From Nonomuraea basaltis (GTDB taxonomy: Bacteria > Actinomycetota > Actinomycetes > Streptosporangiales > Streptosporangiaceae), in contig NZ_VCJS01000016.1 in the NCBI RefSeq assembly GCF_005893125.1, forward strand, positions 1 to 64,000: a stretch of 64,000 bases of DNA. Reading direction: 5' to 3'. This document shows, piece by piece, positions 9,622-44,324 of the stretch. Each line of letters begins with the position of its first letter. Positions within the stretch are counted from its first letter, which is position 1. The position numbers and the translations under genes are program-made. Below the pieces are notes generated by a model. That model was not told the DNA's origin, did not search any database, and worked only from the letters and a program-made list of their open reading frames with translations.

Positions 9622-11223
9622 ATGGTGTCCGCGGATCTCACGCAGACCGCCTCCGGCGTCCCGTCGAAGGGCGGCAGCAATGTGCCGCTCGCCACGGCCG
9701 GCCTGTTGATCGGCATGCTGCTGTCGGTGCTGGACCAGACGGTGGTGGCCATCGCCCTGCCCGACATCGCCGCCGACCTGGGCGGCATGGACGCGATCGG
9801 CTGGGTCGTCACCTCCTACGTGCTGGCCTCGACTGCGGCCGGAGCCCTGTACGGCCGCCTCAGCGACCGGTTCGGCCGGCGTACGGTGTTCCTCACCGCG
9901 GTCGCCGTCTTCGTCGCGGGCTCCGCACTGTGCGGCCTGGCCCAGACGATGCCCCAGCTGATCGCCGCCAGGACCTTCCAGGGCATCGGGGCCGGAGCGC
10001 TGTTCGTGCTGCCCACCATCGCGCTGTCCGAGCTGTACCCACCCCGTCTGCGCGGCCGGATCCAGGGTTTCACCGGTGGCGTCTTTGCGCTGGCCAGCGT
10101 GGGCGGCCCGCTCGCTGGCGGCGCGATCACCGACGCCTGGGGCTGGCGCTGGATCTTCTACATCAACCTGCCGCTCGGCCTGCTCGCCATGGCGCTGGTC
10201 GCGTTCGCGCTGCGGCTTCCCAAGACCGGCGGGGACGGCAGGATCGACCTCGCCGGGGGCGTGTTGATCGCGGGCGCGATGGTGAGCCTGCTGCTGGTGG
10301 CCGAATGGGGCGGCCGCACGTACGCGTGGAACTCCGGCGTGATCCTCACGCTGATCGCTGCCTTGGTAGTGCTGGGAGCGCTGTTCGTGTGGCGGGAACG
10401 ACGCGCGGCCAACCCGCTGCTGCCGCTGCGGCTGTTCGCCGACCCCACCCTGCGCGTCGCGCTGCCCGCCACTGCGCTGCTCGGCGCGCTGCTCGGCGGA
10501 TCGATCGTCTACCTGCCCACCTACCTGCAGGCCACCTACGGCATGGGAGCCACCCAGGCGGGGCTGGCGCTCAACCCGTACGTCCTGACGTTCATGGTGG
10601 TCTCCTCGCTGGCCGGCACCCGCATCGGCGCCAGCGGCCGGTTCAAGCCCTACCTGCTCGCCGGCTCACTGATCGCGGTCCTGGGATTCGCCCTGCTGAG
10701 CCTGCTTCAGCCCGACACCCCCTATGCCCTGCTCGCCGTAGAGATCGGCGTGCTCGGCGTCGGCTTCGGGCTGCTGATGCAGAACCTCGTGGTCGTCGCG
10801 CAGAACGCCGTCTCCCCTGCGGACCTGGCCGCCACCACCTCCGCCGCGGTGTCCGTCCGCGGCCTGGGCCTCTCGCTCGGCGTGGCCCTCTTCGGCAGCC
10901 TCCTCACCCGCGAACTCCAAGGGCAGGCCCCGGGCCCGCAGGCGACCGCCGCTGCCATCCCGGACGTGTTGTTCTGGGGCGCGCCGGCCGCCCTCGTCCT
11001 GGTGGCGTTGCTGGCGCTGCTGCCCCGCACCGTCAACAGGGGCCCCCGCTCGGGTCCGTGTCACCAGACGCAAAGTAACGTTGAGCGACTGTCATCACTC
11101 TGCGTGGTCGCGAGATCGGTCATCTCTAGCGGCCGTGCGGCCATCCGGTCAGGGGTAGGGGCACGGACAGAGCCGATTCCGGCGAAACGTACGGTCCCGC
11201 GCGGGCCAGTCTCCAAGTTCTGA
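9622..11223 (+). CDS. EmrB/QacA-type drug exporter with a non-native tail, 533 aa
   Basis: A 14-helix MFS drug:H+ antiporter. LLSVLDQTVVAIALPDI is the family motif D1 in helix 1, GRLSDRFGRRTVF the loop 2-3 motif and GPLAGGAITDAWGWRWIFYINLP motif C plus the loop to helix 6. The normal C-terminus is near residue 475 (LLPRTVNRGP). The following 58 residues are basic, low-complexity and unlike a transporter, and appear to come from foreign DNA at a recombination junction just before an IS4 remnant. The 2-bp gap from the oxidoreductase gene points to one MerR-controlled export/redox operon. Confidence 0.82.
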   Translation: MVSADLTQTASGVPSKGGSNVPLATAGLLIGMLLSVLDQTVVAIALPDIAADLGGMDAIGWVVTSYVLASTAAGALYGRLSDRFGRRTVFLTAVAVFVAGSALCGLAQTMPQLIAARTFQGIGAGALFVLPTIALSELYPPRLRGRIQGFTGGVFALASVGGPLAGGAITDAWGWRWIFYINLPLGLLAMALVAFALRLPKTGGDGRIDLAGGVLIAGAMVSLLLVAEWGGRTYAWNSGVILTLIAALVVLGALFVWRERRAANPLLPLRLFADPTLRVALPATALLGALLGGSIVYLPTYLQATYGMGATQAGLALNPYVLTFMVVSSLAGTRIGASGRFKPYLLAGSLIAVLGFALLSLLQPDTPYALLAVEIGVLGVGFGLLMQNLVVVAQNAVSPADLAATTSAAVSVRGLGLSLGVALFGSLLTRELQGQAPGPQATAAAIPDVLFWGAPAALVLVALLALLPRTVNRGPRSGPCHQTQSNVERLSSLCVVARSVISSGRAAIRSGVGARTEPIPAKRTVPRGPVSKF

Positions 11224-11769: not shown

Positions 11770-12954
11770 CTAGGCCGGCCTGGCGTGCCGCTCCCGTACG
11801 GCCAGCCACGCGGCGACAGCCCACGGCGCCAGCACGATCGCGAGGCAGCCGAGCGCGTACCAGAAGCGCCCCGCACCCGGCCCGGCGGCCAGCCCCGCGG
11901 CGGCCCACTGCGTGAGGCCGGTGAGCACCGGCAGCACGAAGAGGCCGATCCAGGCGGTCACCACGAGCACACCGGCCAGCCAGAGCCAGCGGAACCAGCG
12001 CCCCGCTCGCAGGTCGCGCGGATCGGCGGCGGCCAGTTCGGCGGTCTGCGCGGGGCTGAGGCCGCTGAAGGGCCCGCCCAAGGGGAGGCCCAGCCGTCCC
12101 AAGGCCTGACGGCGCAGCAGTGTCTGGACCCGCCACAGGTCCTTGCAGCCCAGCCAGGTGATCAGCACCCCGTAGAGGTCGGTACGCAGGAAGATCATGC
12201 ACTGCCAGGCGATCTGGAAGATCAGCACGTAGGTCAGCGCCGCCAGGACGGGCGGCTCCGACGTCAGCCGCAACGCGAAGGTGATCGCCAGCAGCAGGGA
12301 GTCGACGGCGAGCCCGGCCAGGAGCGGTCCGTACCGCAGGCGCCGGGGCACGGACCACAACTGCGACAGGTCGGTCTCGAAGACCACGAACACCATCCGC
12401 CTGTCCACGCCGAACCGCGCCGGGATTCCCAGCGCGCGGGCCGCCAGCCAGTGCCAGCATTCGTGCAGCGCCGCCACGGCGAGGAACATCGGATAGAGCA
12501 GGACGGCGCTGAGGCCCACGTCGGCGAAGAAGACGTCACGCCCGGGGTCGGGCCGCAGCCCGGGGACGAGGATCAGGACGCCCACGTTGAAGACGGCGGC
12601 GAGCCCGTACACGGTCCAGGCGACCCGTCCGAACAGCGGCGCGACCTGTTCCCGCCGAACCCCGAACAGCCAGCGCCTGCCCTGGATGGGCGCGGTCGGG
12701 GCGGGAGCGCGTTCGCCGTCGTCGACGAATCCCAGCTCCCGCAGCGCCTCCACGAACGCGGGCACGTCGACGGGCTCTCCGGCGTACTCCTCGGCTTGCT
12801 TGGCCGCCTCCTCCACGCTCGTACCGGCCTGCAGGGCGGTGATCACCACGCCGCCGACGGGTGGGATGGCGATGAACGTGCCCGTCGCCGGATCGCCGAG
12901 GAGCACCTCGTCGCCCTCGTCCACCAGGCTCAGCGGGCGCAGCCGGACGGTCAT
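11770..12954 (-). CDS. Membrane M50 zinc protease with N-terminal PqqD-like domain, 394 aa
   Basis: Residues 1-78 resemble a PqqD/RRE fold (LVDEGDEVLLGDPATGTFIAIPPVGGVVITALQAGTSVEEAA), a domain that binds RiPP leader peptides. From residue 108 it is a multi-helix membrane protein with the site-2-protease motif HECWH (164-168) and a later Asp in FLRTDLYGVL (about 259) as probable third zinc ligand. Such YydH-like putative peptide zinc metalloproteases accompany several RiPP classes. It may trim, export or give immunity to the peptide encoded at 14134. The start ATG 12954 overlaps the E1 stop by ATGA, showing translational coupling. Family assignment is firm; the role is inferred from context. 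Confidence 0.82.
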   Translation of the reverse strand: MTVRLRPLSLVDEGDEVLLGDPATGTFIAIPPVGGVVITALQAGTSVEEAAKQAEEYAGEPVDVPAFVEALRELGFVDDGERAPAPTAPIQGRRWLFGVRREQVAPLFGRVAWTVYGLAAVFNVGVLILVPGLRPDPGRDVFFADVGLSAVLLYPMFLAVAALHECWHWLAARALGIPARFGVDRRMVFVVFETDLSQLWSVPRRLRYGPLLAGLAVDSLLLAITFALRLTSEPPVLAALTYVLIFQIAWQCMIFLRTDLYGVLITWLGCKDLWRVQTLLRRQALGRLGLPLGGPFSGLSPAQTAELAAADPRDLRAGRWFRWLWLAGVLVVTAWIGLFVLPVLTGLTQWAAAGLAAGPGAGRFWYALGCLAIVLAPWAVAAWLAVRERHARPA

Positions 12955-14015
12955 GGTCCGCACACGGGGCAGTCGGGCGTGGTGGCGAAGGGCTGGCGCT
13001 CCGGCTGGAGGCCGGTGCGCAGGTCGAGCTTGACGAAGCACCCGGCCGCGACCGGCGGCTCGAATCCCGTGAGGTAGCGCAGCGCCTCGTACGCCACCAG
13101 CGAGCCGATCTGCATGGCCAGCGGGCCGATCAGCGTGTTCGTGACCGTGATGGCGGCTCTGTTGCGCTCGAAGAAGCCTTCGGCGGACGCGTCCCCGAGG
13201 TCGGCGCGGTTCTCCCAGTCGCACCGCACGCAGGCGCTCTTGCCCGGGTCGACGGAGTAGTACATGACCTGGGAGCGCGTCATGCCGCCCACCACGATGG
13301 GCACGCCCGCGCGGACGGCCGCCTCGTTGACCCACAGGTGCGCCTCGGGGTGCCCGTCGAGCCCGCCCGCGATGAGATCGACGCCGTCGAGGAGGTCCTT
13401 GAGGTCGTCGGGGCCGGTGATCCAGCGGTCGACGGCGCGGACCTCGATGGACGGGTCGTACTCGCGTACCCATTCGGCCGCCCGGTCCACCTTGGACCGG
13501 CCGATGTCGGCGTGGCGGTAGAGGAACTGCCTGGCGAAGTTGCGTGGTTCGACCTCGTCGCGGTCGACCAGCGTGAGTCTGCCGACGCCGAGCCCCGCCA
13601 GGGACTGCACGAGCGACGAGCCGCCGCCGCCCACTCCGAGCACGAGCACGTGAGCCGCGCGCAGGCGGCGTAGGTACTCGGCTCTCGGCCGGTCGAGGCC
13701 GGAGAAGGTGCCGAAGAAGGCGAGGTTGGAGTGGTGGCGCCGGTCCAGTTCGGGGTCGCCCAGCCATCGGTGGTCCTCGTACTCGACCAGGCCCAGCGAG
13801 TCCAGTGCGTCCAGCGCGTCGGCGATGTCCGCTTCGGACACCGCGAGCGAGCGGGCCAGTTCCCCGGGGCTGCGCGGTTCCCGGCGCAGCTCGGCGAACA
13901 GGGCGGCCACCTGGCCGTCCGGGTCCCCCAGGGTGATCACTTCGCGCGGGTCGAAGAGGACGAGCAGTTCGTCGTCCCTCGACTCCCACAGGCAGTCCTT
14001 CAGCACAACCCGCAT
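12951..14015 (-). CDS. ThiF/MccB-like E1 adenylyltransferase, putative peptide-modifying enzyme, 354 aa
   Basis: Residues 1-90 form a small winged-helix-like region that may act as a peptide clamp. Residues 120-330 are an E1/ThiF Rossmann domain: GVGGGG (127-132) for ATP, DRDEVEPRNFARQ (151-163) with the conserved Asp and RN..RQ residues, K175, and a structural zinc site from CVRC (262-265) and CPVC (349-352). No E1 catalytic thioester Cys is obvious, as in MccB and PaaA, which adenylate peptides without ubiquitin-like transfer. It follows a 19-aa peptide gene and overlaps the M50 gene by 4 bp. The ribosome site GAGGAG precedes ATG 14015. Probable reaction: activation of a carboxylate of the 19-mer; the product is unknown. 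Confidence 0.82.
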   Translation of the reverse strand: MRVVLKDCLWESRDDELLVLFDPREVITLGDPDGQVAALFAELRREPRSPGELARSLAVSEADIADALDALDSLGLVEYEDHRWLGDPELDRRHHSNLAFFGTFSGLDRPRAEYLRRLRAAHVLVLGVGGGGSSLVQSLAGLGVGRLTLVDRDEVEPRNFARQFLYRHADIGRSKVDRAAEWVREYDPSIEVRAVDRWITGPDDLKDLLDGVDLIAGGLDGHPEAHLWVNEAAVRAGVPIVVGGMTRSQVMYYSVDPGKSACVRCDWENRADLGDASAEGFFERNRAAITVTNTLIGPLAMQIGSLVAYEALRYLTGFEPPVAAGCFVKLDLRTGLQPERQPFATTPDCPVCGP

Positions 14016-14031
14016 CGCATCTCCTCACTGT

Positions 14032-14063
14032 GGAGGCGGGGACGGATGCACGTCCCCGCCTCC
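14032..14063 (-). promoter_or_regulatory. Hairpin between peptide gene and E1 gene
   Basis: GGAGGCGGGGAC (14032-14043) and GTCCCCGCCTCC (14052-14063) form a perfect 12-bp stem with an 8-nt loop. It starts 11 bases after the peptide stop and ends 16 bases before the E1 start. There is no T-tract, so it is more likely a partial terminator or mRNA-stabilising element that makes peptide outnumber enzyme. Confidence 0.65.
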
Positions 14064-14074
14064 GGCGCGTGTGT

Positions 14075-14134
14075 CTAGTGGGGGCCGTTGACCGTGGCCT
14101 TGATCGCCTCGACCTTGCGGATCTCGATCTTCAT
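14075..14134 (-). CDS. Candidate RiPP precursor peptide, 19 aa
   Basis: The ORF encodes MKIEIRKVEAIKATVNGPH. An excellent ribosome site (GAGAGGAGAT) lies 6 bases before ATG 14134, stronger than expected for chance. It heads a minus-strand unit with the E1 and M50 genes and is followed by a hairpin. The first twelve residues form a basic/acidic amphipathic segment suited to leader recognition. The end TVNGPH has Asn16-Gly17, a carboxylate C-terminus and two glutamates (4 and 9), any of which an adenylating enzyme could activate. MccA of microcin C (7 aa) and pantocin PaaP (30 aa) are precedents for tiny substrates of ThiF enzymes. I know no family with this exact sequence. Confidence 0.68.
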   Translation of the reverse strand: MKIEIRKVEAIKATVNGPH

Positions 14135-14185
14135 GGCACATCTCCTCTCGTGGATTGCGCGATCTACGATGCAGCGGCAACGCCA

Positions 14186-14191
14186 TACAAT
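14186..14191 (+). promoter_or_regulatory. -10 box TACAAT of the AfsR-type gene
   Basis: TACAAT ends nine bases before the ATG at 14200. Transcription would then start at or within two bases of that ATG, so the regulator mRNA is probably leaderless; no ribosome site is visible. The -35 region is weak (TCTACG at 14163), suggesting an activator. Confidence 0.45.
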
Positions 14192-14199
14192 CGCCACAC

Positions 14200-17001
14200 A
14201 TGCACCACAGGTTTGGGTTACTCGGCCCGGTCCTCGTGCGGCTGGACGACGGGCGGTACGCGCGGCTCAGCGGCAGGCAGCGCGCCGTGCTGGCCACGCT
14301 GCTGCTCAACGCCAACACGGTCGTCTCCCGTGACCGGCTGGAGGCCGCGGTGTGGGACGACCCGCCCATCTCCGCGGTCGCCAACCTCCAGACCTACATC
14401 GCGCAGCTGCGCCGCATCGGGCCCGTCGCCCCTCGCCTGGTCACCATGGGCTCCGGCTACGTGCTGCAGGTGGCGCGCGACGAGGTCGACCTGTTCGCCT
14501 TCCGCGACGAGCTGGAGCTGGCCCGGCTGGAGGGCGATCCGGCGGCCCGCGCCGGGCGGCTGCGGCACGCGATCGGGCTGTGGCGCGGGCGCGCCGCCGA
14601 GGACGCGCCGCTGTCCGCCGTGATGGGCGCCCGGCTGGCGGAGCTGGACGAGCAGTTGGCCGAGGCCCGGTGCGATTGGGCCGCGGCCGAGCTGACGATG
14701 GGCCGGCACGCCGAGGTGATCGGCGAGCTGCGCGCGTTCGTCGCCGAGCATCCCTTGTGGGAACGAGCGTGGGAGCAGCTCATCCTGGCCCTCTCGCAGG
14801 CCGGGCGCCGGGCCGAAGCCCTGTCCGCCTATCGCCAGGCCCGCGCCGCCTTGGTCGCCGATCTCGGCATAGAGCCGGGGCCCGCACTGCGTGAGCTCCA
14901 GTACGACATCCTGTCGGGCGAGCTGCCCTCGCCTTGGCGGCCCGTCTGCCAGTTGCCGGCCGACATCGCCGACTTCGTGGGCAGGGAGGGTGAGCTCGCC
15001 CGGGTCTCCGCCCTGTGCTCGCCGGACGCGCACGCGCCGCCTGTCGTGGTCATCGCCGGCCCGCCCGGCGTGGGCAAGAGCACGCTGGCCGTGCACGCCG
15101 CGCACCTGGCGCGAGCGGCCTTCCCCGACGGGCAGCTCTACCTGCGGCTCGGCGGGCCCTCGCCCCGCGGCCCCGCCGCGCTGCTGGCCGAGCTGCTGCG
15201 GGCGCTGAACGCGCACGTCATCCCCGACTCGGCTGAGGAACGGGCCGCGCTCTACAGGTCGTTGGTGGCCGACCGGTCCATGCTGATCGTGCTGGAGGAC
15301 GCGGCCGGGGAGCATCAGGTGACTCCGCTGCTGCCGGGCACCTCGCGCTGCGCCGTACTCGTGACCAGCCGCGGGCCGCTGACCGCGCTGCCAGGCGCGT
15401 CCGTCGTCCAGCTCGCCGCTCCCCCGCTCGACGAGGCGCGCACGCTCCTCGAACGCGTTGCGGGCGCGGCCAGGGTGCGGGCCGACCCGGGCGCGGCGGC
15501 GTCGATCCTGCGCGCGTGTGGCCGGTTGCCGCTGGCCGTCAGGATCGCGGGAGCTCGTCTGGCCGCCAGGCCGGCATGGCCGCTGCGCGACCTCGCCGAC
15601 CGGCTGGCCTCGGTCGGCAAGCTGGACGAGCTCGCCCTTGGCGGCCACGACGTACGCGCCAACTTCGCGATCAGCTACGAGGCGCTGCCCGCCGCCGCCC
15701 GCCGCGCGTTCAGGCTCCTCGGCTTGGCGGGGTTGGGCAGCATCGCGGAGTGGGCCGTGGCCGCCCTCGTGGACGACCCGCGTCGCGAGGCCGAGCAGTC
15801 CATGGAGACGCTCACGCTCGCCGGGCTGGTCACGGCCGGCGAGGCCGATCAGAACGGCCAGTCGCGCTACCGCATGCACGACCTGCTCGCCGCCTACGCC
15901 CGCGAGCGGGCGCACGCCGAGGAGGATCCCGTACGGCAGGGCGAGGCCCTGGCCCGCTTCACCGCCGAATGCCTGCGCCGCCTGCGCGAGGCGGCCGAGG
16001 ACTACCCGCCACCGATGATCCCGTCCGCTCCTCGGCCTGCGGTGGAGAAGACCGCGGGCGACGGGCACGACTGGCTGCACGCGGAGCGGGAGACGCTGAT
16101 CACCGCGGTCACCCTGGCGGAGCCGCGGACGGCCGCCGAACTGGCGTACCTTCTCTCGCCGTTCCTGGTCGTCACCGGGTTCGCCGACGAGGCGACCGCG
16201 ATGCTCGAAGGTGTCGCCCGCCGGGCGCCGGATCGGCGCACCGCCATGGTGACCCGGCTCCTGCTGGCCGACATCGCCCTGGAGCACCGGCGGATGCGCG
16301 TCGCCCGCCCCTGGCTCGAGGAGTTGGCCGGCCACTTCGCCGCGGAAGGAGACCGGCACGCGAACCTCTACGTGTCGACGGGGCTCGGCATCTGTCACCT
16401 CCTGGAAGGGGAGCCGGAACGCGCCCGGCCCCTCCTTGACCGCGCCATCGCCGGGTTCGAGGCCCTCGGAGACAGGGGCGGCCTGGTCAACGCGCTGATC
16501 ACGGCCGTCCATGTGCGCATCGTGGCCGGGGAGCACGACGAGGCGATCGCGCTGTGCCACCGGGGGCTCAGACTCACCGACGAGCGGAGGTACGGCGACT
16601 ACGCGGTCCGGTTCCACCGCAGCCTGGGGATCTCCCTCTACGAGATGGGCCGGACCGAGGAGGCGATCGGGCACTACGAGGAAAGCATCGGGCTCAGCCG
16701 GGAGCTCGGCTGGGGCCCAGGCGAACCGATCACGCTGCGCAGGCTCGGAGAGGCGTACGGCAGGCTCGGCCGGTTCGAAGAGGCGGCGGCGGTGCTGGCC
16801 CGCTGCCTGGACCTGTTCGCGCGGGCGGGCGACGCCTACGGCGAGGCCCTGACCGCCTACACGCTCGGCGAGCTCAGCCTGGGCCAGAGCCGGCCGGACG
16901 AGGCGCTGTCGTTCTTCACGCGGTGCCGCGATCTGACCGACGAGCCCGGTCTGCGGGCCAGAGCGGGAGACCGGATCGACGAACTGTCAACCATGCGATA
17001 A
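14200..17001 (+). CDS. AfsR-type SARP regulator with NB-ARC and TPR domains, 933 aa
   Basis: Domains in order: OmpR-type winged helix (about 1-95), bacterial transcriptional activation domain (about 96-245, ending DLGIEPGPALRELQ), NB-ARC ATPase (P-loop GPPGVGKST at 287-295, LIVLEDA as Walker B, then GRLPLAVRIAGARL) and TPR repeats (about 640-930, e.g. EDEAIALCHRGLRLT-like units). This is the AfsR architecture that activates specialised-metabolite genes. The start at 14200 (MHHRFGLLGPV) is preferred to an in-frame ATG 15 codons upstream because the winged helix begins at once and a -10 box sits just before. It diverges from the peptide gene by 65 bp and is the likely activator of that locus. 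Confidence 0.88.
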   Translation: MHHRFGLLGPVLVRLDDGRYARLSGRQRAVLATLLLNANTVVSRDRLEAAVWDDPPISAVANLQTYIAQLRRIGPVAPRLVTMGSGYVLQVARDEVDLFAFRDELELARLEGDPAARAGRLRHAIGLWRGRAAEDAPLSAVMGARLAELDEQLAEARCDWAAAELTMGRHAEVIGELRAFVAEHPLWERAWEQLILALSQAGRRAEALSAYRQARAALVADLGIEPGPALRELQYDILSGELPSPWRPVCQLPADIADFVGREGELARVSALCSPDAHAPPVVVIAGPPGVGKSTLAVHAAHLARAAFPDGQLYLRLGGPSPRGPAALLAELLRALNAHVIPDSAEERAALYRSLVADRSMLIVLEDAAGEHQVTPLLPGTSRCAVLVTSRGPLTALPGASVVQLAAPPLDEARTLLERVAGAARVRADPGAAASILRACGRLPLAVRIAGARLAARPAWPLRDLADRLASVGKLDELALGGHDVRANFAISYEALPAAARRAFRLLGLAGLGSIAEWAVAALVDDPRREAEQSMETLTLAGLVTAGEADQNGQSRYRMHDLLAAYARERAHAEEDPVRQGEALARFTAECLRRLREAAEDYPPPMIPSAPRPAVEKTAGDGHDWLHAERETLITAVTLAEPRTAAELAYLLSPFLVVTGFADEATAMLEGVARRAPDRRTAMVTRLLLADIALEHRRMRVARPWLEELAGHFAAEGDRHANLYVSTGLGICHLLEGEPERARPLLDRAIAGFEALGDRGGLVNALITAVHVRIVAGEHDEAIALCHRGLRLTDERRYGDYAVRFHRSLGISLYEMGRTEEAIGHYEESIGLSRELGWGPGEPITLRRLGEAYGRLGRFEEAAAVLARCLDLFARAGDAYGEALTAYTLGELSLGQSRPDEALSFFTRCRDLTDEPGLRARAGDRIDELSTMR

Positions 17002-40002: not shown

Positions 40003-42813
40003 ATGGGACTGGACATCAGGATCTTGGGCCCGTGGGAGGCCTCCGCGGACGGCGCGCCGCTGCCGCTGGCCGGCAGCCGGCGGATCAGCCTGCTGGCCCG
40101 GCTGGCGCTGAGCGCCGGCCAGCCGGTCACGGCCGAGCAGCTGCTGGCCGACGTGTGGGGCGAGAGCCGGGTGGCGACGGCGGCCAAACAACTGCACATC
40201 GTGGTGTCGAAGCTCCGCGAGGCCCTCGCGACGCACCTGGCCGGCGAGATCATCGTGACCGTGCCCGGCGGCTATCGCCTGGACCTGCCGGTTGAGCACG
40301 TCGACGCGCACCGGTTCGCCCGCCTGGTACGCGACGCCCGCGCGGCACGGGCACGTGGTGACACCGCCGCCGCGCACGCGCTGTTCCGCCGGTCCCTGGG
40401 TCTGTGGCGGGGCGACGCCCTGGCCGAAATGCAAGGGGATTGGGCGCGGATCGAGGCGGCGCGCCTGGAGGAGGAGCGGCTGTCCGCCTTCGAGGACGAC
40501 ACCGACCTGCGGCTGGCTCTGGGCGACCACCACGCCGTGGTTCCCGAGCTGACCGCACACGTCGAGGTGCACCCTCTGCGGGAGCGTCCATGGGCGCAGC
40601 TGATGCTGGCGCTGTATCGGGCATCGCGGCCGTCTGAAGCCTTGGCGGCCTACCAGGACGCCCGCCGCGTCATGGTCGAGGAGCTCGGCATCGAGCCGGG
40701 CGCCACGCTGCGGCGCCTGCAGCAGGCGGTGCTGGCCGCAGACCCGGTCCTCGACCTCCCCTCCCCGCTCCAGCAGGCTGCGCCGGGCGTGGTTCCCGCT
40801 CCGGCCGAGCTGCCCGCCTTGGGGGTTTTCACCGCACGCCACCTCGAGCTGACCTGGCTCGGCAAGGCACTCACCGAGACCTCGCCGGGCGCGCCGACGA
40901 TCGTGGCGATCGACGGGCCGGGCGGGATCGGCAAGTCGGCGCTGGCCGTGCATGCCGCCCACTCCGTGGCCCACCGCTTCACCGACGGGGTCCTCTACGT
41001 CGACCTGCGCGGTGCCACAGCCGGTCTGGAGCCGCTGGAGCCGCTGGACGCGCTGGGCCGGTTGCTGCGCTCGCTGGGACTGGACGGCTCCGCCGTACCC
41101 ACCGTGAGGGACGAGGCCGCGGCGCGCTACCGCTCGCTCACCGCCGGGCGCAGCCTGCTGATCATCCTCGACAACGCGCTGGACGCCCGCCAGGTCCGCC
41201 CGCTCCTGCCCGCCGGGGCGGACTGCGTGGTGATCATCACCAGCCGGCAGGCGCTCACCTCGCTCGACGGCGTGAACCACCTGCACCTGGCCGAGCTCGA
41301 CCCCGCCGACTCCACCACGCTGCTGGCGCGGATGGCCGGTCCCGCCCAGGTGCACGCCGAGCCCGAAGCCGCCGCGCGGATCGTCCGGCTGTGCGGTGGC
41401 CTGCCGCTGGCCCTGCACATCGCGGCGGCGCGCCTGGCCGCCCGCCCTCACTGGACGCTGTCCTACCTCGCCGACCGACTCGCCGACGCCACGCGCCGCC
41501 TCGACACGCTCGAGCACGCCGACCTGGCCGTGCGCGTCAGCCTGGCCGCCAGCCTGCACCACCTGCGCGAGGAACCGACGGGCCAGGAGGCGACCGAGAT
41601 GTTCGCACTCCTCGGCCTGCTGGACACGCCCGAGCACACGCCGGCGGCGGCCGCCGCCCTGGCCGACCGGCCGGCGTACGCCGTGGAGGCGGTGCTCGAC
41701 CACTTGCTGGCGGCCCGCCTGCTGGAGCCGGCCGGTCCAGACCGCTATCGGATGCATGACCTGGTCCGCCTGTACGCACGAGAGCAGGCCGCCCGCGACA
41801 TTCCCGAACCTGAGCGCCGCGCCGCCACGCACCGGGCGCTGCACCACTATCTCGCCACGGCCAGGACGGCCAGCCTCCTGCTCAATCCCTCCCAGGCCAT
41901 CGTGGCCGACCTCCACGCTGACCTGCCTGGCCTGCGCCTGAACACCCCTCAGGAGGCCATCGCCTGGACCGAAGCCGAGCGCGACAACCTCATCGTCGCG
42001 GTGCGGCAGGCCGACGATCTCGAGACCGTCACCGGCTTGGCCGCCTGTGTCAACGTGCCGTTCAGCCATCGAGGCTGGCTCGGCGATCTGATCGAGATCC
42101 AGCGTCGTGCGCTGGACATCGCCACCCGTGCGGGCGACTGGGCGGGGCAGGCTCGCGGGCACAACTACCTGGGCTGCATCCACAAGAACAGGGGCAGCCT
42201 GGAGTCTGCAGTCGCCCACCTCGAGCAGGCCGTCCTGTGCTGGGAACGGGCGGGCACGCCCTCCCGGGCCGCGGGGCCGCTGCACAACCTCGGCACGACG
42301 TACGGCAGGCTGGGGCGCTTCGACGAAGCGCTGGCCACCCAGGTCAAGGCGATCGCGGCGACCCAGGAGAGCGGCCTGCGCGACTACGAGGCGATCATGC
42401 TCAACGGCCGGGCGTCGGTGCTGATCAGGATGGGCCGCTTGGACGAGGCGATCGACGCCGGCCGCAAGAGCCTGGAGATCTGGTCGGACTTCGACAATCC
42501 CCAGGGCGAGGGCGCGACGTGCGACACGCTGGCCGACGCCTACCGGCGCGCGGGCAGGTACGCCGAAGCCGAGACCCTCTACCGGAGGGCCGTCGAACTC
42601 CAGCGCGCAGCCGGCCACCGCGCGGTGGAAGCCATCTCCCTGTGGGGGCTCGGCGATACCCTGAACGACCTGGGACGGCTCGCCGAAGCCCGGGCATGCT
42701 GGCACCGGTCGGCACGGACCCTGCGCGACGTCCACCTCCTCACCGAGGAGGAGCTGGAGCGGATCCTGGCCCAGGACGTCCCGCCGCCCCCGGGACCGAT
42801 CAAGCACTTCTAG
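40003..42813 (+). CDS. AfsR-type SARP regulator with NB-ARC and TPR domains, 936 aa
   Basis: Winged helix (about 1-95: LDIRILGPWEASADGAPLPL...QLHIVVSKLREAL), BTAD (about 96-250, ending ELGIEPGATLRRLQ), NB-ARC with P-loop GPGGIGKSALAVHAAH near 305 and LLIILDNALDARQVRPLLPA as Walker B, then TPRs (about 690-920). The start at 40003 is chosen because the DNA-binding domain begins there. The following SARP-ABC chimera is 44 bp downstream on the same strand, and its N-terminal part is clearly paralogous. It probably activates a specialised-metabolite pathway not present in the window. Confidence 0.87.
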   Translation: MGLDIRILGPWEASADGAPLPLAGSRRISLLARLALSAGQPVTAEQLLADVWGESRVATAAKQLHIVVSKLREALATHLAGEIIVTVPGGYRLDLPVEHVDAHRFARLVRDARAARARGDTAAAHALFRRSLGLWRGDALAEMQGDWARIEAARLEEERLSAFEDDTDLRLALGDHHAVVPELTAHVEVHPLRERPWAQLMLALYRASRPSEALAAYQDARRVMVEELGIEPGATLRRLQQAVLAADPVLDLPSPLQQAAPGVVPAPAELPALGVFTARHLELTWLGKALTETSPGAPTIVAIDGPGGIGKSALAVHAAHSVAHRFTDGVLYVDLRGATAGLEPLEPLDALGRLLRSLGLDGSAVPTVRDEAAARYRSLTAGRSLLIILDNALDARQVRPLLPAGADCVVIITSRQALTSLDGVNHLHLAELDPADSTTLLARMAGPAQVHAEPEAAARIVRLCGGLPLALHIAAARLAARPHWTLSYLADRLADATRRLDTLEHADLAVRVSLAASLHHLREEPTGQEATEMFALLGLLDTPEHTPAAAAALADRPAYAVEAVLDHLLAARLLEPAGPDRYRMHDLVRLYAREQAARDIPEPERRAATHRALHHYLATARTASLLLNPSQAIVADLHADLPGLRLNTPQEAIAWTEAERDNLIVAVRQADDLETVTGLAACVNVPFSHRGWLGDLIEIQRRALDIATRAGDWAGQARGHNYLGCIHKNRGSLESAVAHLEQAVLCWERAGTPSRAAGPLHNLGTTYGRLGRFDEALATQVKAIAATQESGLRDYEAIMLNGRASVLIRMGRLDEAIDAGRKSLEIWSDFDNPQGEGATCDTLADAYRRAGRYAEAETLYRRAVELQRAAGHRAVEAISLWGLGDTLNDLGRLAEARACWHRSARTLRDVHLLTEEELERILAQDVPPPPGPIKHF

Positions 42814-42857: not shown

Positions 42858-44324
42858 ATGTCACTGGAGATCGGGTTCCTCGGGCCCTGGGAGATCAAGG
42901 CGGGCGGGCAACCGGTACGGCTGGCGGGCCGTCGCCGCGTCGCCGTACTGACACGGCTGGCGCTGGACGCCGGCCAGCCCGTCACCGCGCGTCATCTCGT
43001 CACCGACGTCTGGGGGCAGACCTCGACCGCCACGGCCGGCAAGCAACTCCACATCGTGGTGTCGAAGCTGCGTGACGTGCTCACACCCGAGTCCATCGCG
43101 ACCGTGCCCGGCGGTTACGTGCTGGACGTGCCCCGCGATCAGGTCGACGCGCACAACTTCACGCTGCTGGCCCGCCAGGCGCGAATGGCCCGCGAGCGGG
43201 GCGGGCCGGGCACCGCCGACGCGCTGTTCCGGCGGGCGCTGGCCCTGTGGCGGGGGCCGGCCCTGGCTGAGCTGATCGACCCGTGGGCGCAGATCGAGTC
43301 CAGACGCCTGGAGGAGGAGCGCCTGGCCGTCTTCGAGGACCACATCGACCTGCGGCTGGCCGCGGGGGACCACCACGCGGCGGTGACAGACCTCGCCCCG
43401 CACGTCCAGGCCCATCCGCTGAGGGAGAGATCGCGCGCGCAGCTGATGCTGGCGCTCTACCGGGCGGCCCGGTCGTCCGAAGCGCTCGCGGTCTATCAGA
43501 AGGGCCGAACCGTCCTGGTGGAGGAGCTCGGCGTCGAGCCGGGCGCGCGGCTGCGCCGGCTGCAGCACGCCATCCTCACGAGGGATCCCGTGCTCGAGCT
43601 CACCACTCCGGCGCAGTCCGCCACGATCGTCCCCGCCGAGCTGCCTACCGACACCCGGTCGTTCACCGCCCGGCACGAGGAGGTGGGCTGGCTGCGGGAG
43701 GCGGTGCTGAACGCGGGCGTGGCCGTGGTCGACGGGCCAGGCGGCCTCGGCAAGTCGGCGCTGGCCGTCCACGTCGCGCACGCGATGGCCGGACGGTTCC
43801 GCGACGGCGATCTCGCGCTGCTCGATGAGCTCACCGTGACAGAGAACCTGTTTCTCAGCCGCGAACCGCAACGCGGGCTGCCGGGCTTGAAGCTGCTCGA
43901 CCGGCGGGCGATGAAGCGGCAGGCGCGCGAGATGCTCGCGCAGATCGGCGCCGCCGACCGGATCGAGGTCGACGGGCTGATCCGATGGATGTCCGGTGGC
44001 CAGCGCCAGGCGGTCGCCATCTGCCGGGCGGTGGCCTGGGGCGCCAAAGTGATCATCCTCGACGAGCCGACGGCGGCCCTCGGCGTCAACGAGAGCGCCG
44101 AGGTCCATCAGCTCATCCGCCGGCTCAAGGCCCAGAGCATCACCGTGATCTTCGTTAGCCATAATTTCGAAGAGATCATGGCGCTGGCTGACCACATTTG
44201 GGTGATGAGGCAGGGCACGGCGATCGCCGGCCGGCGTGCCGCGGAGACCAGCGGGACAGAGCTGGTGGGCCTGCTGACCGGCGCCACGTCGGAGGCGGCC
44301 GAGGGCACATCAGCGACGACCTGA
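42858..44324 (+). CDS. Chimeric protein: SARP + P-loop fused to sugar-ABC ATPase rear half, 488 aa
   Basis: Residues 1-250 are a complete SARP DNA-binding domain plus BTAD (ELGVEPGARLRRLQHAILTR). Residues 285-315 begin an NB-ARC (GPGGLGKSALAVHVAHAMAG). At about residue 317 (DGDLALLDELTVTENLFLSR) the sequence switches, in frame, to an RbsA/XylG-type ABC ATPase just after its Q-loop: signature MSGGQRQAVAICRAVA, Walker B VIILDEPTAAL, H-loop VSHNFEEI. The ABC Walker A and the Q-loop glutamine are absent, but the NB-ARC P-loop is present upstream. It probably arose by deletion between two genes; the frame has stayed open for 488 codons. Whether it folds is unknown. Confidence 0.7.
   Translation: MSLEIGFLGPWEIKAGGQPVRLAGRRRVAVLTRLALDAGQPVTARHLVTDVWGQTSTATAGKQLHIVVSKLRDVLTPESIATVPGGYVLDVPRDQVDAHNFTLLARQARMARERGGPGTADALFRRALALWRGPALAELIDPWAQIESRRLEEERLAVFEDHIDLRLAAGDHHAAVTDLAPHVQAHPLRERSRAQLMLALYRAARSSEALAVYQKGRTVLVEELGVEPGARLRRLQHAILTRDPVLELTTPAQSATIVPAELPTDTRSFTARHEEVGWLREAVLNAGVAVVDGPGGLGKSALAVHVAHAMAGRFRDGDLALLDELTVTENLFLSREPQRGLPGLKLLDRRAMKRQAREMLAQIGAADRIEVDGLIRWMSGGQRQAVAICRAVAWGAKVIILDEPTAALGVNESAEVHQLIRRLKAQSITVIFVSHNFEEIMALADHIWVMRQGTAIAGRRAAETSGTELVGLLTGATSEAAEGTSATT

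Follow-up and report, generated by a model that had tools for sequence, protein, structure and literature searches.

A candidate cassette for small modified peptides, combining an MccB-like E1 enzyme with a very short precursor, in Nonomuraea basaltis and other actinomycetes

What is made by an adenylating enzyme of the E1 type when its gene follows an open reading frame (ORF) of just 19 codons? The question is raised by a cassette in a 64,000-nucleotide stretch of Nonomuraea basaltis [assembly GCF_005893125.1, contig NZ_VCJS01000016.1, positions 1 to 64,000], referred to here as the window. On its minus strand, the 19-codon ORF is followed by a hairpin, a gene for an E1/ThiF-like adenylyltransferase and a gene for a membrane M50-like metalloprotease, and an AfsR-type regulator diverges from them. 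A preliminary description, made from the letters of the DNA, had read this arrangement as a system for a ribosomally synthesized and post-translationally modified peptide (RiPP). The individual features named in it, including the strong ribosome-binding site of the ORF, the hairpin and the divergent activator, were all found (Table 1), and the RiPP reading gained support from a family of conserved leaders, an E1 model closest to MccB and a protease domain resembling a RiPP recognition element (RRE). The cassette is in all likelihood a small RiPP system built by an MccB-like E1 on a tiny peptide, an assessment that applies to the reading as a whole and not to the lactone considered below. The set of peptide, E1, protease and regulator recurs in dozens of actinomycete genomes, and its products are very probably a family of small modified peptides.

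The evidence begins with the precursor. An E1 scan of genome contigs gave 22 loci, and 21 of these carry upstream of the E1 gene an ORF for M-x-I-x-[VI]-[RK]-[KR]-V-E-x-[VI]-K-A-T, starting with Met or Val; the remaining locus, L023, matches the second half of E1 only. The wider count included E1s (seeds among them) with at least 300 aa aligned and at least 200 bits, and covered up to 600 bp upstream or 400 bp downstream of E1. A short ORF encoding the same leader lies near each of the 73 distinct E1s above this cut-off, in 63 cases upstream and in 10 downstream. The short ORF expected to precede the E1 is thus present at all of them, and it is its position that varies. The 25 loci below the cut-off (<300 aa or <200 bits) were left out of the count. 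They comprise three with the peptide (L066, L070 and L079), three partial E1s without it (L023, L122 and L123), eight distant E1s also without it (L067, L068, L069, L077, L078, L081, L083 and L089) and 11 weaker-matching ThiF proteins (L124-L134).

A matrix of the leader, built first from 18 leaders, gave 18.9-55.7 bits for the peptides in the listed loci of L052-L104, and in three codon-shuffled sets (2.48 Mb) produced four matches of at least 8 bits with a maximum of 16.0. Rebuilt from 32 leaders and applied to L105-L134, it found the peptide at all 17 full-length family E1s, 9 of them from newly sampled places, and none at the partial E1s L122 and L123 or at the 11 weaker ThiF loci. In two further cassettes, L135 and L136, the peptide MEIKVRKVEDVKATGLQV sits downstream of the M50 gene; neither of these nor any of the 73 E1s lacks the ORF. 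The public gene tables for L135 and L136, which are incomplete, have no entry for the precursor, and gene-based mining may therefore well overlook the family. Because the peptide sequence is kept while its place in the operon changes, it is a gene product and not a by-product of the leader sequence of the E1 gene.

Forty-three distinct peptides of 18-25 aa were collected. Glu9 and Thr14 are invariant in all 43 and are the only such residues. Position 3 is Ile in 42 peptides and Leu in one, 42 have Val or Ile at position 8, and position 10 is the most variable of the leader. The conserved stretch is KVE-x-[IV]-K/E-x-T, so that the first half of the KVE-x-IK...NGP-type pattern proposed earlier stands; a conserved NGP motif was rejected, since NGP-type residues are confined to one clade. 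Lys12 was likewise rejected as a ring partner, position 12 being K, E, R or Q. Behind Thr14 follow 32 different tails of 4-11 residues, with no residue common to all; the shortest, of 4 residues, occurs in 10 of the 43 peptides. The C-terminal residue is S, C, T, V, A, G, H, Q or L and never N, and is Cys in 7 peptides. Searches of NCBIfam and Pfam with the precursors gave no match.

The two parts of the peptide also differ in their codons. The leader has 1458 synonymous and 1348 non-synonymous single-base codon differences (48% of 2806 non-synonymous, against 76% expected), and the tail 55 and 186, respectively (of 241). These counts, which are pairwise and hence not independent, show a leader under purifying selection and a tail with no excess of synonymous change; a peptide free of purifying selection, considered earlier as a finding that would speak against a precursor, was not what emerged. 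A fixed front, a variable tail and this contrast in codon change form the pattern of leader and core. The tails track the E1 tree, being constant inside clades and unlike between them: VNGPH/ANGPH, GFAV and TNGTV/INGTV belong to neighbouring clades, QNPAT and QFMT/QFVT to separate ones. Two sister clades carry GNSNSC (L080, L082, L087, L112-L117, L119 and L121) and CGNSNS (L084-L086 and L088), which are exact rotations of each other, both behind 14-residue leaders.

Some unusual precursors were also seen. L052/L094 has two leader-like peptides in tandem upstream of E1, VTIGSRETEPFKATGYEWIML and then RIGVREPEPVKATARMVIR, the latter with no clear start codon. A distant member in a genome of the same genus (L070, 4381 region) has an E1 match of 139 bits and a 20-mer, MRIVIRRPEKIEATAWWIVA, which ends in WWIVA.

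Table 1. Features of the cassette and its surroundings in the window.
Feature	Position	Strand	Basis or remarks
Precursor peptide gene, 19 codons, MKIEIRKVEAIKATVNGPH	14075-14134	-	ORF, leader matrix, conservation
Parts of the precursor: leader MKIEIRKVEAIKAT (14 residues) and variable tail VNGPH	14075-14134	-	
Ribosome-binding site of the precursor, GAGAGGAGAT	14140-14149	-	Sequence
Hairpin between precursor and E1	14032-14063	-	RNA, -33.4 kcal/mol, z -3.8 against 60 shuffles
E1/ThiF-like adenylyltransferase, 354 aa	12951-14015	-	N-terminal RRE-like domain (about residues 1-84) and ThiF domain with two CxxC pairs
Membrane M50-like metalloprotease, 394 aa, HECWH	11770-12954	-	N-terminal PqqD/RRE-like domain (about residues 1-80)
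Divergent AfsR-type regulator (BTAD/SARP DNA-binding part, NB-ARC, TPR)	14200-17001	+	Best start ATG 14200
Candidate SARP operator, TGTGGTG-catg-TGTGGCG-attg-TATGGCG	14181-14209	-	Three heptads, 4-bp spacers, upstream of precursor
MFS transporter gene	9622-11223		Other side of the cassette; member of family F4

The E1 contains every motif attributed to it in the preliminary description (GVGGGG, a DxD that reads DRD, RNFARQ, and the pairs CVRC and CPVC) and matches Pfam ThiF with 171.8 bits. In its predicted structure (mean predicted local distance difference test score, pLDDT, 81.7), residues 1-79 form strands and then three helices. MccB supplies all of the 24 best PDB chains for the model, with alignments along the entire protein (about 360 columns, TM about 0.65-0.68, root mean square deviation about 6, 18-20% identity); PaaA comes next, followed by ThiF and MoeB. 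The predicted fold corresponds to an RRE domain fused to a ThiF/E1 domain, as in the RRE-ThiF (TLAT) enzymes of RiPP pathways. R162, K175 and D220 are invariant in 13 aligned E1s, and their spacing is identical to that of the adenylation residues R167/K180/D225 of EnfB [PMC12250964]. Among cysteines, only Cys8 and the four that make up the CxxC pairs are conserved throughout the 13 sequences. Cys8 is not conserved in a second clade, and nothing therefore points to a catalytic cysteine like that of ubiquitin E1s.

The start of the M50 gene overlaps the E1 stop codon in ATGA, and the H, E and H of HExxH, present here as HECWH, are invariant in 11 aligned M50-like sequences. An alignment of these proteins found no relative in the PDB by sequence at E <= 1. 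In the predicted structure (pLDDT 76.8), the N-terminal domain is best matched by the RRE of the lasso peptide protein TbiB1 with bound leader, McbB and a lasso B1 RRE; the matches are weak by E-value (0.013-0.3) and have probabilities of 0.99-1.00. Counted by tblastn over 70 loci, some of which represent one place twice, an M50 match occurs at 54 of 61 peptide-bearing loci, at none of the 8 distant E1 loci that have no peptide, and not at L023. On these models, E1 and the M50 protein probably both bind the same 14-residue leader, which would account for its rigidity. The rotated tails differ in this respect, as the GNSNSC loci L080, L082 and L087 have the M50 gene and the CGNSNS loci L084-L086 and L088 do not. 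At its place in L084, L086 and L088 is one other gene family, which in L088 (the only one of these identified with Pfam) is an M14 zinc carboxypeptidase.

In the source genome, the 43-base pattern of the precursor occurs once at up to 3 mismatches, and one E1 of the cassette family was found at the profile limit used. Hairpins in 64 distinct gaps between precursor and E1 have a median z of -2.7 (range -0.2 to -7.0, from dinucleotide-preserving shuffles, or single-base ones where that fails), and the hairpin is therefore common but not universal. Where present, it would favour the peptide over the enzyme transcripts.

The regulator of the window has BTAD, NB-ARC and TPR domains and scores 458.7 bits against the NCBIfam AfsR equivalog cut-off of 1430, and it is thus AfsR-like but not AfsR. 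In the window and L002-L022, a SARP-type regulator diverges within 404 bp of E1 at 16 of the 22 loci. It is downstream in L008 and L018, a related gene in the same direction is found in L007, and no such regulator was found in L005, L019 and L022. With 59 BTAD-domain matches in the 14.3 Mb of the source genome, the adjacency of regulator and cassette is not expected by chance. Two of these domains mark further regulators on the plus strand of the window (40300-40734 and 43143-43577).

The candidate operator overlaps the start codon of the regulator. Its heptad consensus was picked from a few loci and then run on 76 distinct upstream regions, of which 25 score at least 16 of 21 (20 in the window); scores of at least 17 were reached in 2 of 7600 single-base shuffles. 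In 24 of the 25 regions the site lies 72-83 bases before the precursor start codon, and in L048 it lies 100 bases before it. Three heptads with 4-nt spacers also form the operator of the SARP-LAL regulator PimR, with the heptad CGGCAAG [PMC5930380]. The site goes mostly with regulators at least 46% identical to that of the window; exceptions are L048/L103, which has the site and a 35% identical regulator, and the QNPAT clade, whose regulators are about 32-36% identical and which has no site. We infer that the regulator binds the site at 14181-14209. L005, L044 and L072 keep the site with no regulator found beside it (the regulator was checked in L005, L104 and L100), which suggests a regulator acting from elsewhere. 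Apart from E1, regulator and M50, at most 4 of 23 loci have any one gene family in common.

The best-matching named E1 is that of Nonomuraea indica (88% identity). Profile searches found the E1 in 34 of 298 genomes of the family, 52 of 345 of the order and 4 of 394 of the class, in sets that overlap. Of the four class-wide matches, obtained with the first profile, three are in the family of the window and one, outside the order, is in another family. Another profile, based on the most divergent clade, gave matches in 43 of 345 genomes of the order, many of them weaker ones to other ThiF proteins. A profile of the GNSNSC clade found none among the 394 class-wide genomes at the tight limit of 1e-62, which by itself shows little. 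Members beyond the order were found in Streptomyces, Actinophytocola and Streptomyces plasmids. A tblastn search of a plasmid collection gave 20 records with the E1, 19 from Streptomyces and one from Nonomuraea, the latter an entry of 11.85 Mb. The cassettes L135 and L136 are on large linear Streptomyces plasmids and have a BTAD regulator on the strand of the E1.

From these features, a course of events can be proposed. In the clade of the window, the divergent SARP-NB-ARC-TPR protein would turn on the operon via the triple heptad site. The first 14 residues of the peptide would serve as a leader read by the RRE-like domains of E1 and of the membrane protease, as the fold matches and the conservation of the leader suggest. 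E1, with its MccB-like fold and intact adenylation residues, would adenylate one of the carboxylates of the bound peptide at the expense of ATP, and the M50 protein would cut off the leader at or in the membrane and so release the product. As the tails share no residue, the C-terminal carboxylate is the likeliest group to be activated. Our preferred guess, and a tentative one, is that it is then trapped by the hydroxyl of the invariant Thr14 to give a macrolactone of 5-12 residues. The shortest tail of 4 residues would give a 5-residue ring if closure is on Thr14, and lactone rings of the Agr type have five or more residues.

Several observations weigh against this proposal or parts of it. The case for a Thr14 lactone consists of two invariants and a minimum tail length, and Glu9 is as invariant as Thr14. 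The rotation of GNSNSC and CGNSNS would agree with head-to-tail closure rather than with a Thr14 lactone. Some of the peptides counted with the matrix had also served to train it, and, since it rewards Glu9 and Thr14, it could overlook variants that lack them. By sequence profile, ubiquitin E1, MoeB and ThiF chains rank slightly above MccB for the E1 (from residue 117, the ThiF part only). To the weak E-values of the protease RRE-like domain is added a weak score of the M50-like protein against Pfam M50 (11.4 bits, cut-off 27.2), and 7 of the 61 peptide-bearing loci have no M50 match (L018, L070, L094, L084, L085, L086 and L088). The GNSNSC/CGNSNS clade has no regulator, and neither do several other clades. 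There is also no widely shared transporter, the MFS family F4 lying within about 7 kb of E1 in 4 of 23 loci, the window included.

Two other closures are each possible but rather doubtful. In one, E1 activates the side chain of Glu9 and Thr14 attacks it, giving an omega-ester ring E-x-x-x-x-T within the conserved half and reducing the tail to decoration. This would use precisely the two residues that are invariant in all 43 peptides, and a Glu partner has two precedents. The second of these is PaaA, which reportedly activates Glu. The first is the Glu35-Cys39 link made by GrcB, although the review that describes it names the C-terminal carboxylate in places as the activated group [PMC12250964]. 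However, the ring would be nearly constant and the clade-specific tail would be left with no role, and binding of the leader by two RREs would likewise account for the invariance.

In the other, the C-terminal adenylate is trapped by no side chain at all and becomes a backbone imide or a C-terminal amide, as in enterofaecin. In EnfA, a peptide of 21 residues, the groups used by EnfB are a backbone amide and the carboxylate at the C-terminus [PMC12250964]. That the tails share no side chain is in keeping with this, as are the WWIVA end of the L070 20-mer, near the WWIVI of EnfA, and the many leaders with [VI]-R-K, comparable to the (V/I)RKA motif of EnfA. On the other hand, L070 is distant and has no M50 match, and the resemblance covers few residues. 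EnfB depends on Trp17 and Trp18 [PMC12250964], and none of the 32 tails has two Trp.

A head-to-tail cyclic peptide of the tail alone, with the leader removed behind Thr14 before or during closure, is unlikely. The rotated tails of the two sister clades are what such a ring would predict, but they form a single pair among 32 tails, and the move of one Cys is small and, given the shared GNSNS, not rare by chance. In addition, the 4-residue tails of 10 peptides would make strained rings.

We regard as quite improbable a peptide nucleotide of the microcin C kind, in which E1 adds AMP (or CMP) to the C-terminus via a phosphoramidate. The closest fold is that of MccB, whose substrate is likewise a very short peptide, but MccB acts at a C-terminal Asn [PMC12150305], in which none of the 43 peptides ends, and, with no further family in more than 4 of the 23 loci, there is no conserved partner of the microcin C type (the neighbours were not all named).

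Finally, although most ThiF-family proteins are unrelated to RiPPs [PMC12150305], a regulatory or chance ORF beside an E1 of sulfur-carrier or cofactor chemistry is very hard to reconcile with an ORF that is conserved as protein, moves from upstream to downstream of E1 or behind the M50 gene, and is missing at the 11 weaker ThiF and the 8 distant loci.

The cassette might also act in cyclic-peptide signalling, an idea that we consider speculative and on balance doubtful. E1 would close the tail, the RRE-M50 protein would release the ring, and the TPR part of the regulator would be the receptor that fires the operon via the heptads. If so, AfsR-type regulators would gain a ribosomal peptide ligand, and the cassette would be an ATP-driven counterpart to the Agr-type lactone pheromones. 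The inducer of AfsR-type regulators has been called elusive [PMC10936776]. The promoter design ties the clade of the window to a SARP regulator, and what the TPR domain of an AfsR-type protein senses becomes a testable question. So does the key reaction, as a 19-residue substrate and one soluble enzyme allow an assay with synthetic peptide; the 14-residue leader is seemingly read by two different proteins, and more than 30 tail sequences are ready for synthesis.

A different arrangement was noted in L067-L069, where a short conserved ORF, MIKKSTKRYSVAGG[AT]QKG, lies upstream of a distant RRE-ThiF-like gene (E1 at about 4009-5247 in L067). Its neighbours in L067, the one locus annotated with Pfam, include a prolyl-oligopeptidase-type S9 peptidase and an MFS transporter. 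These loci are possibly another RiPP type.

RiPPs built by RRE-ThiF enzymes (microcin C, pantocin, GRC, enterofaecin and Ind) are a kind already known and have been reviewed [PMC12250964]. The preliminary description knew of no class with this precursor and gene set, and the openly licensed PMC literature, supplements aside, gave no description of this leader or of the E1/RRE-M50 pair. A word search of the available text of the review returned no M50, Nonomuraea, actinobacteria, SARP or metalloprotease [PMC12250964], and the available parts of three further papers added no match [PMC7470986, PMC12710340, PMC8442711]. A survey of 27,400 RRE-ThiF candidates includes several unlabelled clusters that met its criteria, and its unlabelled network groups may contain these E1 enzymes [PMC12150305].

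The cassette shares with microcin C (MccA/MccB) the closest solved fold over the full length and a very short peptide substrate. It differs in having no C-terminal Asn and no conserved accessory families beyond the cassette, and in its leader and RRE-M50 protein. Pantocin A (PaaP/PaaA) has the same RRE-E1 fold. Its core is said to be Glu-Glu-Asn, a sequence absent from all 43 peptides. Enterofaecin is similar in its precursor of about 20 residues, short leader with V/I-R-K, RRE-ThiF enzyme and identical R/K/D spacing, whereas it comes from Enterococcus, has a WWIVI core and four transporter proteins, and is described in the available text with no mention of an RRE-M50 protein or SARP regulator [PMC12250964]. 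A core of the WWIVI type is found in none of the 32 tails, the distant L070 alone ending in WWIVA, and in place of the exact (V/I)RKA motif, VRKVEA or IRKVEA is common here. Ind (IndA/IndF/IndP) is likewise a minimal cluster of precursor, RRE-ThiF enzyme and metalloprotease, but with an M16 protease, a transporter, a longer precursor and a Trp-Ile indolylamide [PMC12150305], and there is no conserved Trp here. GRC (GrcA/GrcB) also uses an RRE-ThiF macrocyclase, with a 39-residue precursor, two radical SAM enzymes and a Glu-Cys thiolactone [PMC12250964]; no radical SAM partner is conserved here, though single-locus cases are possible as not all neighbours were named.

Membrane M50 proteins also act on the precursors of other RiPPs, namely TglG and TmoG (pearlins) and EpeP (epipeptide) [PMC10885120]. 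The M50 protein of the cassette has a fused PqqD/RRE-like domain and an E1 partner. The regulator resembles AfsR and other SARPs in its BTAD, NB-ARC and TPR domains, and its operator resembles that of PimR in the three heptads with 4-nt spacers [PMC10936776, PMC5930380], but it lies beside a RiPP cassette and its heptad is TRTGGCG, not the CGGCAAG of PimR [PMC5930380]. The hosts of the RRE-ThiF examples described experimentally in the literature consulted are E. coli, Bacillus, Streptococcus and Enterococcus; clusters of the microcin C type are described from Yersinia and Hyalangium as well. To these the cassette adds an apparent actinomycete branch.

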